Source of the DNA: Planctomycetaceae bacterium
GTDB lineage: Bacteria > Planctomycetota > Planctomycetia > Pirellulales > Pirellulaceae
Direction: 5' to 3'
Length of the DNA: 59,986 bases
Assembly (NCBI GenBank): GCA_002862205.1
Contig: PKCN01000007.1
Location: forward strand, 1 to 59,986
Part shown: positions 1,865 through 5,403 of the stretch, in pieces
Numbering within the stretch: position 1 is the first letter of the stretch
How the letters are laid out: every line of letters starts with the position of its first letter
Notes under the pieces: model-generated
What the model saw: only the letters and a program-made list of their open reading frames with translations
What the model was told of the DNA's origin: nothing
Database searches by the model: none
Made by a program: the position numbers and the translations under genes

Positions 1865-2455
1865 ATGGGCAACTTATCTGAAACAATCGCGGTGGTTCGA
1901 CCAGAAGAAGTCAATCAGGAAGAATGGCTTTGTGGTTTGTCAGACGCTGATTTACTGGATGCATGGACGCGCGATCAGTTCCGGCCGGCGCTCGCCGAAT
2001 TGATCACGCGATACAGCGTGATGGTATTGTCAGTATGCCGACGAGGTTGTGCACGAGAGGTTGATGTTGATGATGCTTTTCAGACGACGTTCTTGTATTT
2101 GGCTCGTAGTGGCGGGTCCATTCGGCATGCCGAACGACTCCCTGGGTGGCTGCAGCGTGTCGCGCAGCGATCAGCTGTGGCAACGTGGAAAAAGAATCGT
2201 CTTCCATGCGAGCCAATTGGCGATCCCTCTGCAGTTGTTGAAGATCCACTTGTTCAATTGACTCATCGGCACGAGGCAGTCGTGTTGGATGAGGAACTGT
2301 CTGATCTGCCGGCAAAATATCGAGCCGTCATTGTCATGCATCACTATGAGGCGACCTCGATACCAGACTTGGCAACTCACTTTGGTACAACGGTCGGTAC
2401 GATCCGCGGGCGTCTCCAGCGTGGCAGGAAAATGCTTGCGATACGCCTCAGGTAA
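1865..2455 (+). CDS. ECF sigma factor, planctomycete ECF01-Gob-like
   Basis: A 196-residue sigma-70 family protein. Region 2 is seen around residues 45-85, with the DVDDAFQTTFLYLAR helix and the WLQRVAQRSAV motif. Region 4 is at about 140-195 (LPAKYRAVIVMHHYEATSIPDLATHF followed by a helix-turn-helix ending GTIRGRLQRGRKML). This combination is typical of the extracytoplasmic-function factors abundant in planctomycetes. In the Gob-type group, region 4 normally runs on into an Arg-Gly-Leu sequence and a hydrophobic extension. Here a TAA stops the protein just before that sequence, which continues in frame (next entry). The secreted STN-like gene 160 bases downstream may be a regulatory partner, which is inference. 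No anti-sigma gene is visible next to it. Confidence 0.88.
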   Translation: MGNLSETIAVVRPEEVNQEEWLCGLSDADLLDAWTRDQFRPALAELITRYSVMVLSVCRRGCAREVDVDDAFQTTFLYLARSGGSIRHAERLPGWLQRVAQRSAVATWKKNRLPCEPIGDPSAVVEDPLVQLTHRHEAVVLDEELSDLPAKYRAVIVMHHYEATSIPDLATHFGTTVGTIRGRLQRGRKMLAIRLR

Positions 2456-2605
2456 CGTGGTTTGATGCCAGCAATAGCTTTCGCCAGTGTGACAGCAGGA
2501 AGTGTCCAAAACGTCGCTGCAGCGGAAGCCGTGTCGAGGCTACCGATCACGATGGAAGGCGGTGACCTGCCGGACTCGCCGATCGATTCTTCATCTTCTC
2601 TCTGA
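2456..2605 (+). other. In-frame continuation of the sigma factor beyond a TAA
   Basis: Read in the same frame after the TAA at 2453-2455, the next 49 codons give RGLMPAIAFASVTAG and then an Ala-rich stretch (QNVAAAEAV), ending at a TGA at 2603. The Arg-Gly-Leu plus small-residue hydrophobic segment resembles the membrane-associated extension found after region 4 in many planctomycete Gob-type ECF factors. The simplest readings are a nonsense mutation that shortened the protein, or a sequencing error. Alternatively an ATG at 2465 could begin a separate small peptide. The following gene starts only 14 bases later. Confidence 0.4.
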
Positions 2606-2618
2606 TGGAATTTCAAAG

Positions 2619-3995
2619 ATGGTATTTCTATCCAAAAGTATGCTGGTCGCTGGCGCCCTAACGCTTTCCTTTTTCATTGTTTCTGGTGACGGTGGTGATC
2701 GTGGTGAGGGTCATCAAGCAACTCCGATTGACGTTGAAAACCGACCTCGCACGATCCAATTACTGCCGCAAGCTTTGGCTCAGGATAGTGGTGGTTCTGG
2801 TGTCGTGGTTGAGATTGGTAACGGTGTTTCACCCCGAGACCCGGCTAGGATGGGGCCAACTGGGGTGAACCAAACAATGGGCCAAAAGGGTGGAGGCGAA
2901 AAGGGAAGGCAAGGGATGCCCGACATGGACATGGGCCGAATGGATGGAGGCGAAAAGGGAAGGCAAGGGATGCCCGACATGGACATGAGCCGAATGGATG
3001 GAGGCGAAAACTCGATTGGGTCTCAGGGGACGCGCAAAAACGCTCTGCTTGATGCTTGGAAATTAGATAGCAAGACCGCAGAAAACGTTCGGAAGGCTCT
3101 GGATACTAGCTACACATTCGATATTGATGTGCCGCTTTCCGGGTTGAATCGAGCTCTTGCCGACTTGACAGGGCAGCCTGTGTTTCTGAATGAACGGGCT
3201 GTTAGAGAAGCGAAACAGGAGCTCGATATACCGATCAAATATACGCGGGAAAAGACGCCTCTGCGGAGTGCTATGCGGCAAATTTTGCGACCACTCTGTC
3301 TCAAAGCCAGCATCGACAACGATGGCATTGTGATTACGGTTGACCATGCTGCGCTTGCGAAGGCAGGAATTGGCACTGATGCATGGATCAATGTTGATCA
3401 AGAGATGGAACGAGACCTCTCAGCGAAGCTGGAACAGAAAGGAGTGTTTGAATTTCGTGATACACCGTTAAAAGAATGTATCAGCAGCTTGGCAGATCAG
3501 TTCGATCTCAAAATGGTCATTCGCGAGGATGCTTTGGAGGATATCGGTCTCACGTCCAATCACCTCATTACTTTGACGCTTGCCGACATAACACTTCAGG
3601 ACGCCTTGAGCGAGATGCTGTTTGCTCTCGATTGTACTTATACAGTGAGTGGTGGCCTGGTTGTTATCACTTCGGCTGGGATAGGAGAAGAGGATTTTCT
3701 TACCCGAGTCTATTGGCTTGATGGTACGGGTCTCATGGGTAAACAGGCCATTGAGATCATTACAGCTACCGTTTCTCCTGATATGTGGCAGCATTTAGGT
3801 GGCCCGTCAACGATTTCAGGATTGATTAACCCACGCGCGGGATTGGTGATTGCAACGACGTACACGTTGCACAAGAAAATCGAGCGGATGTTGAAGACGC
3901 TACGAGACTCTCAGTTTGCTCCTGATCCGAATTTGGAGTTGGTTGAGACGTTCGGACCGGGTAGTTCCATGGGCGCGGGTAGCGTTGGTTTCTGA
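2619..3995 (+). CDS. Secreted STN/DUF4974-like protein with an internal 18-residue repeat
   Basis: A 458-residue protein when started at the ATG at 2619, which gives a good signal peptide (MVFLSKSMLVAGALTLSFF). The frame is open back to 2502, but that part overlaps the sigma-factor extension and does not look like protein. After the signal comes a low-complexity region (about residues 55-130) containing two copies of an 18-residue unit with the core KGRQGMPDMDM. Two related alpha/beta modules follow: one around VPLSGLNRALADLTG...ITV and one around FEFRDTPLKECISSLADQF...LVVI. These have the hydrophobic and 'DxxLxxxL' spacing of STN (secretin/TonB short N-terminal) domains. Many planctomycete proteins of this build are exported and of unknown function. 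Being next to the ECF gene suggests, but does not prove, a signalling link. Confidence 0.72.
   Translation: MVFLSKSMLVAGALTLSFFIVSGDGGDRGEGHQATPIDVENRPRTIQLLPQALAQDSGGSGVVVEIGNGVSPRDPARMGPTGVNQTMGQKGGGEKGRQGMPDMDMGRMDGGEKGRQGMPDMDMSRMDGGENSIGSQGTRKNALLDAWKLDSKTAENVRKALDTSYTFDIDVPLSGLNRALADLTGQPVFLNERAVREAKQELDIPIKYTREKTPLRSAMRQILRPLCLKASIDNDGIVITVDHAALAKAGIGTDAWINVDQEMERDLSAKLEQKGVFEFRDTPLKECISSLADQFDLKMVIREDALEDIGLTSNHLITLTLADITLQDALSEMLFALDCTYTVSGGLVVITSAGIGEEDFLTRVYWLDGTGLMGKQAIEIITATVSPDMWQHLGGPSTISGLINPRAGLVIATTYTLHKKIERMLKTLRDSQFAPDPNLELVETFGPGSSMGAGSVGF
2892..3010 (+). repeat. 54-bp tandem repeat, 2.2 copies, inside the STN-like gene
   Basis: Copies occupy 2892-2945 and 2946-2999, with a partial third (11 bases) to 3010. 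The copies differ at one or two bases. The unit is 18 codons, so the repeat keeps the reading frame and lengthens a low-complexity linker between signal peptide and folded domains. Confidence 0.9.
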
Positions 3996-4298
3996 GCGAC
4001 TTGCTGTGATTCCCGAATCTCAGTCAACTGATCCGAGTGAGTCGCTGTGATGCAGGCATCCAGCTTGATAGATCGAGTTCGACCGCAGCGTACGACATAA
4101 ATTCACGGTGGATATTTCATTTCACGTTCGCATGATCGCAGATTGGGAAAAGTTTCGATCGTTCAGGCGAACGAGTTGATGGAATCGTTAGCGATCAGCT
4201 GAGGTATCTGGCGTAACGCATGTTCATGGAATTCCAAAAGCTGATTTTTGGGCATCAATTCGAGACTTGCATTGTCGCAGGTCGACTGCATTTTTGGA
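3996..4298. other. Convergent intergenic region, nothing recognised
   Basis: About 300 bases lie between the plus-strand STN-like gene and the minus-strand thioredoxin-like gene. I see no gene, clear terminator or repeat in it. Confidence 0.5.
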
Positions 4299-4913
4299 TC
4301 AGTGATTGCCGCGTCTTTTCGGTGCAGCGTAGGCATCGAGTGCAGTGGCTAAATCGCTGGTTTGCTGGCTTGTTAAGCGTTGTTTGGATTGTTCAATCAT
4401 GGTCATGAAGTAGCCACATTCCTGTTCGGTAATCGGACATCCAATATTGCCATTTGGGCTGTCAGAGTTGATGATTTCAACACCATTGCTATCCAGAATA
4501 GTCATCCAAGGTAGTCCAGCATCGGCGTTGTGCCCCAGCTTCACTGCGGCTTGCTTGCCATTTTGCATATCCTCAACATCAAGTTTGAGAACAATGAAAT
4601 CAATTTCCAGGATATTGGATTTTTTCTTGAGGAACTCCTCGAGAACTTTACACCAACCTCACCATGTGGCACCAAGATGCACCAGAACACGTTTGTTTTT
4701 TGTTGTTGCGTTGGCAAGAGCTTCATCCAATGATTTAAGCGCGTCAGCCGTGGGCAATGTGGTTTCGTCGGCTGGATTAGCATCCGTGTCTGGCTGCGGT
4801 TTCAGCGTTTGAGTTTCACGCATTTCGGATTCGGACACCGATGCCTGCTTCGTTGCAGGTGTACAACCGGCGAGAATGAGAATGGCAACTGCTGCGTAGA
4901 GTATTTTCTTCAT
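4299..4913 (-). CDS. Thioredoxin-like lipoprotein, candidate selenoprotein (in-frame TGA in the UxxC motif)
   Basis: Read through one TGA, this frame gives a 204-residue protein. Residues 1-17 (MKKILYAAVAILILAGC) are a lipoprotein signal with lipobox LAGC, so the product should be lipid-anchored outside the cytoplasmic membrane. A linker runs to about residue 65. A thioredoxin fold follows: RVLVHLGATW, then the TGA as residue 85, then GWCKVLEEFLKK with Cys88, then a beta strand (IDFIVLKLDV) and the cis-Pro loop GLPWM. Homologues of this fold have W-C-G-W-C here, so the TGA replaces the first catalytic cysteine. The frame is unbroken on both sides. A hairpin immediately downstream fits bacterial SECIS rules (separate entry). 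A thiol-disulfide oxidoreductase or peroxide-linked role is inferred. The alternative is a nonsense mutation in a cysteine gene. The start at 4913 was chosen because it gives the lipoprotein signal; longer starts add residues that do not look like a signal. Confidence 0.7.
4624..4645 (-). promoter_or_regulatory. Candidate bacterial SECIS hairpin
   Basis: On the mRNA strand UUCUCGAGG and CCUCAAGAA pair with one C-A mismatch around the loop AGUU. That gives eight base pairs and a four-base apical loop with G in its second position. The loop begins 23 bases after the UGA (22 bases between). Published rules for bacterial SECIS elements ask for a short stem, at least one G in the first two loop bases, and roughly 16-37 bases between UGA and loop; this hairpin fits all three. 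It lies inside the coding sequence, as bacterial SECIS elements do. Confidence 0.6.
4659..4661 (-). other. Candidate selenocysteine codon (TGA)
   Basis: The codon is TGA on the minus strand, at residue 85 of the thioredoxin-like protein. It is preceded by Ala-Thr-Trp and followed by Gly-Trp-Cys, giving U-G-W-C. TGA ends many other genes in the window, so it is not reassigned genome-wide. Confidence 0.65.
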
Positions 4914-4986
4914 CGGTCTACTTTGTATCATTCGAATCACGGTTTGACCCTGATGCAAAAATGAATGCGAGAACGGTCCAAAATCG

Positions 4987-5394
4987 CTAGCCGTCGAATG
5001 CACTCCTTACATGCGGTTTGTTGAGCACCACCAACGCCCAGATGCCAAACGGGATACCGAGGAGGCAACAGGGACCCAGGAACGGGATGATTGCGACGAT
5101 CGATGCTGCTTTTGCGATTCCATGGTCCTTCTTTTTGATCATTCTAATGGCACCAAATAACACAAAAGACGAAGTGAACAAAAGCACGACTCCCCAGATA
5201 ATTCTGACCATGATGTCCGGCGCAAGTATGCCTAGTGCTAGCACGCCAACGATATCGACTATCAGTCCCAAACCTGTAATGGCCAAACAAAGGATCGATA
5301 CCACCATCAATGCAATAGCCGGGCCTTTGATTTCATCACCGTTAGCAGATTGTGTGAAATTGGTGTGTGGGGTAGAGGTGTAGGGGTTGGACAT
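4987..5394 (-). CDS. Small multi-pass membrane protein (DUF4190-like)
   Basis: About 135 residues when started at the second methionine (MSNPYTSTP); an ATG three codons upstream is also possible. A polar N-terminus of about 30 residues is followed by hydrophobic segments at roughly 30-55, 57-85 and 95-125. The last contains the pattern FLGPCCLLGIPFGIWALVVL, which recurs in many planctomycete small membrane proteins ending close after it. No catalytic motif is visible. The candidate selenoprotein starts 73 bases after its stop on the same strand, so the two could be co-transcribed, but the gap allows separate promoters. Function unknown. Confidence 0.7.
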   Translation of the reverse strand: MSNPYTSTPHTNFTQSANGDEIKGPAIALMVVSILCLAITGLGLIVDIVGVLALGILAPDIMVRIIWGVVLLFTSSFVLFGAIRMIKKKDHGIAKAASIVAIIPFLGPCCLLGIPFGIWALVVLNKPHVRSAFDG

Positions 5395-5403
5395 GGGTTG
5401 CAA

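Follow-up and report, generated by a model that had tools for sequence, protein, structure and literature searches.

The minus-strand gene at 4299-4913 of the window (the whole 59,986-nucleotide stretch of DNA analysed here) is almost certainly, judging from sequence comparison, a planctomycete selenoprotein gene and not a broken gene. Its product can be described with high confidence as an exported, lipid-anchored thioredoxin-like selenoprotein, in which SelB and a hairpin would insert selenocysteine (Sec) at UGA codon 85 and Sec85 and Cys88 would form a redox pair. The recoding signals, the Sec machinery, selection on the read-through part, the fold and the lipobox were all computed here. 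The genome from which the window comes measures 7.77 Mb (completeness 98.7%), and the nearest named homologues belong to Rhodopirellula MAGs (68% identity). The gene and its parts are listed below.

4299-4913, minus strand: predicted selenoprotein gene; 204 codons, counting UGA 85 as sense, followed by the terminal stop TGA (4299-4301); start backed by homologues.
4863-4913, minus strand: predicted lipoprotein signal peptide with lipobox LAGC and predicted lipidated Cys17 (codon 4863-4865); Pfam LPAM_1 25.8 bits, cut-off 20.
4302-4751, minus strand: thioredoxin-like domain, residues 55-204; Pfam Thioredoxin_7 42.4 bits, cut-off 27; model pLDDT 95.9; best PDB match 3fk8.
4659-4661, minus strand: in-frame UGA, codon 85, putative Sec; 28 genes share the TGA, and 79 aligned homologue rows have Cys instead.
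4650-4661, minus strand: putative redox motif U-G-W-C (Sec85, Cys88); all 56 rows of alignment A4 have Cys88 (domain position C34).
4624-4645, minus strand: bacterial SECIS-like hairpin with 9-nt arms (one mismatch) and an AGUU loop at 4633-4636, the loop lying 22 nt 3' of the UGA.
4509-4511, minus strand: Pro135, which we take to be the cis-Pro of the thioredoxin fold; no variation across A1 (9 rows) or A4 (56 rows).
4437-4439, minus strand: Cys159 (NIGCP motif), a third Cys that most Sec forms have and few Cys forms do (24/28 Sec versus 4/53 Cys rows).

The sequence-only reading from which this work started had described a single long minus-strand frame, broken by one TGA where a CxxC motif has its first Cys. 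The description was accurate: the frame (204 codons, 4302-4913, ATG at 4911-4913) has TGA 4659-4661 as its only internal stop, in the context ...HLGATW-U-GWCKVLEEFL.... The UGA lies within ATW-U-GWC, so Sec would open the redox motif and be followed by Cys88 and the conserved Pro135. The frame was also correctly said to go on after the UGA through the rest of the fold, including the cis-Pro loop; 119 codons lie 3' of the UGA, and Pro135 is conserved among them.

Homologues were collected by tblastn from loci of a family draw of 149 genomes and a scan of genome contigs. This first set comprised 50 rows including the window, 9 with TGA at codon 85 and 41 with Cys; the TGA rows were the eight best-scoring (window counted) and the remote locus L046. 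A profile of 9 UGA proteins (A1) brought in further homologues from the 22 genomes of the genus and from a phylum draw of 392. Over all loci, 118 rows aligned at the site (TGA in 36, Cys in 79, and G, S and A in one row each). Cys, the residue proposed for relatives at this position, thus occupied 79 of the 82 non-TGA rows, and the three G, S or A rows were without a recognisable CxxC at the site. The in-frame UGA is aligned to Cys homologues. When five identical second copies (L070-L074) and three members of an FWGTWU subfamily were subtracted from the 36 TGA rows, 28 distinct UGA genes, window included, remained in 28 genomes, a count that leaves out 13 further TGA-bearing profile matches that came without loci. 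The 79 Cys rows still include at least two second copies (L076 and L112).

A bacterial SECIS, according to the part of PMC1088965 consulted, is a stem-loop right after the UGA with a small apical loop and a conserved G. The geometry originally given for the window hairpin was borne out, with eight base pairs (the 9-nt arms contain one C.A mismatch), an AGUU loop and 22 nt from UGA to loop. Taken by itself this hairpin is modest: fold z-scores were -1.4 to -1.6 over three folded stretches, and its stem has the shortest uninterrupted helix of the 28 (4 pairs, then the mismatch). An Rfam scan of 4200-5000 returned one irrelevant match below the gathering score. A comparable hairpin lies 3' of 250 of the 2536 TGA triplets on both strands of the window (about a tenth; 50/2536 with a 4-nt loop), and its use as stand-alone proof was dropped for this reason.

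The hairpin rises above chance because it is conserved, with AGUU at the same distance, exactly +22 nt, in 28/28 UGA genes and a stem that covaries. Of the 8 stem positions, a mean of 7.0 are paired in the 28 UGA genes; the 79 Cys rows reach 3.4 at the corresponding site. In the hairpin alignment of UGA genes (A2; 28 rows, 27 distinct), 87.0% of cells are paired and two-sided changes occur at 6 of the 8 pairs. In 500 shuffles the fraction of paired cells, the two-sided changes and the covariation score were never as high as observed, whereas further pair types were in 3/500; structures slid along A2 paired at most 60.6% of cells, and RNAalifold returned the inner six pairs unprompted. The structure was absent from the Cys control (A3, 30 of the 39 Cys rows, out of 79, that have a WCxWC-like motif), in which 43.5% of cells were paired, under the shuffled mean. 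The clearest compensations are in L019 (G-C to A-U), in L100, which has a different 8-pair stem, and in L046 and L075, in which the stem differs and the amino acids partly differ while the loop is unchanged. Coding constraint alone cannot account for the pairing, since codon choice is biased inside the hairpin stretch: Glu is encoded by GAG in 50/50 cases versus 182/335 elsewhere in the same domains, and Leu by CTC in 47/52 versus 117/391.

The genes whose presence the sequence-only reading had proposed as a check, selA, selB, selD and a tRNA-Sec with UCA anticodon, were all found in the full genome. The tRNA-Sec scores 70.3 bits (cut-off 47) with anticodon TCA (UCA in RNA), and one cluster with overlapping ends encodes SelB (640 aa), SelA (469 aa) and a 717-aa protein that includes SelD. 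The 717-aa protein (L156, 1609-3762 on contig C86) has an N-terminal Pyr_redox_2 domain (77.5 bits) and two AIRS domains, SelD being its C-terminal part.

UGA genes and SelB also occur together across genomes, although these counts are not independent trials because of shared ancestry. In the family draw SelB was above cut-off in 6/6 UGA genomes versus 77/149 overall, and in the phylum draw a SelB match at E<=1e-55 was present in 18/18 UGA genomes with loci besides the window's own genome (G000), versus 259/392 overall. Within the genus, such a match was obtained in 15/22 genomes and in 5/7 UGA genomes, the misses being G154 and G162. G154 has a tRNA-Sec, SelA and a 517-aa SelB piece cut by the contig start. 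G162 (77% complete) gave no SelB at E<=1e-55, no tRNA-Sec and no SelA above cut-off, and this reflects either genuine absence or an assembly gap. Altogether, SelB, whole or partial, was detected in 27/28 UGA genomes, and tRNA-Sec was above cut-off in 26/28, 25 of them at 64 bits or more; a tRNA-Sec match was absent in G162 and G336 (both 77% complete). The matches in G492 reach just 48.6-48.7 bits (cut-off 47) and are doubtful because the same search also rings in 5/14 control genomes. No tRNA-Sec was found in 13 genomes with Cys forms only, a contrast that is partly built in because those 13 were chosen among genomes without a SelB match. SelA was above cut-off in 7 of the 9 UGA genomes tested, the exceptions being G162 and G119.

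The part 3' of the UGA is under purifying selection. For residues 89-204, comparing the window with L047, L048 and L049 gives dN/dS of 0.25-0.30, and pN/pS is 0.29-0.38 across ten pairs of five genes (synonymous sites are saturated between the window and L018). The downstream part is kept under selection and has not decayed in relatives, as the sequence-only reading had proposed, which argues against UGA being an ordinary stop that leaves an 84-residue truncated lipoprotein and a decaying downstream pseudogene remnant. Standard gene calling would end the frame there, with a 114-aa frame from an earlier start ending at 4659, but Cys88, Gly133 and Pro135 are invariant in the 9 UGA proteins of A1, the TGA is retained at the same codon in 28 genes, and termination inside the redox motif would take away the active site. 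We consider an ordinary stop very improbable. The same very low probability applies to a TGA that has been reassigned (to Trp, Cys or Gly) or is read through independently of SECIS or SelB; no evidence for either turned up in this analysis. TGA is used as stop by the gene itself, by 6 of 11 window frames checked and by the selB, selA and selD frames, hairpin covariation is seen in UGA forms but is lacking in the Cys control, and the full Sec machinery is present.

One base separates TGA from the Cys codons TGT and TGC, so that a sequencing or assembly error could in principle have produced it; the same-codon TGA recurs, however, in the separately assembled L047, L048, L049, L018 and L089, each with a SECIS-like hairpin that is missing from the Cys control. 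This recurrence refutes a sequencing error, the probability of which we regard as negligible, and TGA 4659-4661 is genuine, as had been supposed. Pseudogene, reassigned UGA and sequencing error were all rejected, and every testable outcome named beforehand as speaking against a selenoprotein came out on the selenoprotein side. The reading of UGA 85 as Sec, already put forward from the window alone, is very probably correct given tRNA-Sec, SelA, SelB and SelD in the genome, Cys in homologues and the conserved, covarying hairpin, and we infer that selenium is incorporated.

The assignment of the product as a thioredoxin-like lipoprotein was also upheld, Thioredoxin_7 and LPAM_1 both scoring above their Pfam cut-offs. 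The layout is a lipoprotein signal, a linker and the thioredoxin-like domain. Cys17 is invariant among the 9 UGA proteins of A1, and the predicted lipobox conforms to that of bacterial lipoproteins. Membership in Thioredoxin_7 follows from a score above the gathering cut-off together with thioredoxin-fold PDB matches for the structure model. Model quality depended on the input: a 9-row alignment gave pLDDT 42, and the 56-row domain alignment gave a thioredoxin fold with pLDDT 95.9 and pTM 0.91. Among solved proteins, the Xylella disulphide isomerase 3fk8 comes nearest, both by sequence (4.3e-17) and by fold (first in Foldseek), with an rmsd of 8.2 over 146 columns, so that the overall fold match is loose. 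Structural neighbours of the model also include DsbH and the C-terminal domain of DsbD.

In the mechanism that we propose, the catalytic CxxC would have turned into UxxC, and SelB, guided by the hairpin just 3', would place Sec at UGA 85. In selenoenzymes generally, Sec raises nucleophilicity. We infer cell location, redox direction and substrates as follows: export and lipidation at Cys17 would leave the domain facing a periplasm-like compartment, the selenolate of Sec85 would attack disulfides or peroxide-type substrates, and Cys88 would resolve the mixed selenosulfide. The protein is most likely a lipid-anchored thiol/disulfide oxidoreductase, with Sec85 as the attacking and Cys88 as the resolving residue. 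It is possible, and we say so tentatively, that the selenoprotein acts mainly as a partner protein, an oxidant or an electron donor (in a DsbD-like relay or in peroxide detoxification, for instance), and not as a general disulfide reductase. The best partial NCBIfam match is to the DsbD C-terminal domain (33.8 bits, far under the cut-off of 330), in line with the structural neighbours named above, whereas no DsbD-like Pfam match was found in the seven neighbouring window genes scanned or in the upstream gene. The genes around the proposed oxidoreductase gene include the following.

4987-5403, minus strand: upstream gene, a 138-aa hydrophobic protein with no assigned function; conserved neighbour.
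1865-2455, plus strand: sigma-70-family gene (Sigma70_r2, Sigma70_r4_2).
2502-3995, plus strand: next gene after the sigma-70-family gene, encoding a 497-aa protein; its STN match is weak and under the cut-off.

The 138-aa protein is encoded directly upstream of the UGA gene in L018, L047, L048 and L049 as well (57-63% identity), and a Pfam scan of it gave nothing above cut-off; it is a possible functional partner of the selenoprotein. The 497-aa protein is likewise conserved near the UGA gene in these four loci.

Cys159, for which 53 Cys rows have a letter at the position (5/86 rows are gapped), is replaced in Cys forms mostly by Phe or Tyr. It lies just before the last-but-one helix, the region in which thioredoxins contact substrate. 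Cys159 could form a selenenylsulfide with Sec85, protecting or relaying it. Although the raw counts look strong, a dependence of Cys159 on Sec is treated here as no more than a lead, since the tree provides just 4 independent pairs, with which a sign test is unable to reach significance. The proposal that the Sec forms make up a separate redox enzyme built on three residues (Sec85, Cys88, Cys159), beyond simple Cys-to-Sec variants, is rather unlikely at this stage.

A tree of 86 domains (146 columns), which sets neither root nor direction, requires at least four Sec/Cys changes on well-supported branches. All but two of the 28 Sec rows (26) fall in one weakly supported group that also holds two Cys rows (L023 and L105). 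The other two, L046 and L075, are placed in another clade, next to Cys proteins of the same genus, a position that points to a separate Sec/Cys exchange.

Several relatives carry more than one domain or a different residue at the site. The window's own genome encodes a second thioredoxin-like protein that keeps Cys (L157, 351-1133 on G000:C19, VGGDWCNWC) and resembles the L046/L075 clade; its counterpart in two other genomes of the genus, L046 and L075, apparently has UGA (WUSWC). Tandem thioredoxin-like domains, with CxxC in the first and UxxC in the second, occur in L089, L090, L096, L098, L099, L102 and L104 from distant planctomycetes. Three loci of the family-level group f74, L095 (minus), L103 (minus) and L101 (plus), have two in-frame UGA codons in one frame, one in an N-terminal FWGTWU(G/P)PC domain and one in a C-terminal LGAPWUGYC or LSAPWUGWC domain, and are candidate two-Sec, two-thioredoxin-domain proteins.

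UxxC thioredoxin-like selenoproteins have already been described in bulk, as seen in the parts consulted of PMC2398784, PMC13188914, PMC9312934 and PMC1088965. The portion consulted of PMC4807772 reports selenoproteins and a complete Sec machinery in Rhodopirellula strain P2; its main text holds, as far as consulted, no description of the present lipoprotein family, and the portions consulted of PMC5330540, PMC12013277, PMC5029168, PMC1242214 and PMC1794560 contain nothing on it either. Among the open-access papers listed by the literature searches, no title, abstract opening or consulted portion describes this planctomycete lipoprotein family. An NCBIfam (June 2026) scan covering five of the 28 UGA proteins gave no score above any curated cut-off, including those of NF045694, NF041057 and the WAxxUGC model NF041054. 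Since the UxxC kind is known, no NCBIfam cut-off was passed by the five proteins scanned and no describing paper was found among those listed, we conclude that the family is a widespread, so far unnamed planctomycete branch, new at the subfamily level within the known UxxC thioredoxin-like selenoproteins. Gene callers to which UGA is always a stop truncate such genes, so that this planctomycete redox family would be missing from proteomes or split in them. Its natural series of Sec forms, Cys forms, several exchanges and a Sec-linked SECIS bears on why exported thioredoxin-like enzymes gain or lose selenium, and the covariation-backed planctomycete SECIS can be used for training gene finders.

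Among known systems, the Trx-like 1, 2 and 3 groups of marine bacteria (GOS) likewise have Sec first in CxxC, a thioredoxin-type domain and Cys homologues (Table 2 of PMC2398784, consulted in part). By the descriptions there, these groups belong to COG0526, cd02953 and cd02950 and are set apart from the window protein, which matches Thioredoxin_7 best, has a lipobox and comes from Planctomycetota; given the partial DsbD C-terminal match, its membership in Trx-like 2 (cd02953, UxxC) is possible. The Trx7/PDZ selenoprotein NF041199 (Table 1 of PMC13188914; listed under Thioredoxin_7 in PMC9312934; both consulted in part) resembles the window protein in having Sec within Thioredoxin_7, but it is described as CxxU with a PDZ domain whereas the window protein is UxxC, and NF041199 was not among the NCBIfam matches of the scanned UGA proteins. 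The Rcas_1661 family NF041057 is also named a thioredoxin-like (seleno)lipoprotein; the window protein scores 12.9 bits against it (cut-off 190), over residues 8-72 only, that is, the signal and linker. In TsoB (NF045694, a rhodanese/DsbD fusion-like selenoprotein) a near-C-terminal part matches the window thioredoxin domain with 29.6 bits, but the cut-off of 805 is not reached and the model spans 572 positions versus 204 residues in the window protein. The closest solved relative, the Xylella disulphide isomerase 3fk8, has the Cys motif WCTDC where the window protein would have WUGWC.
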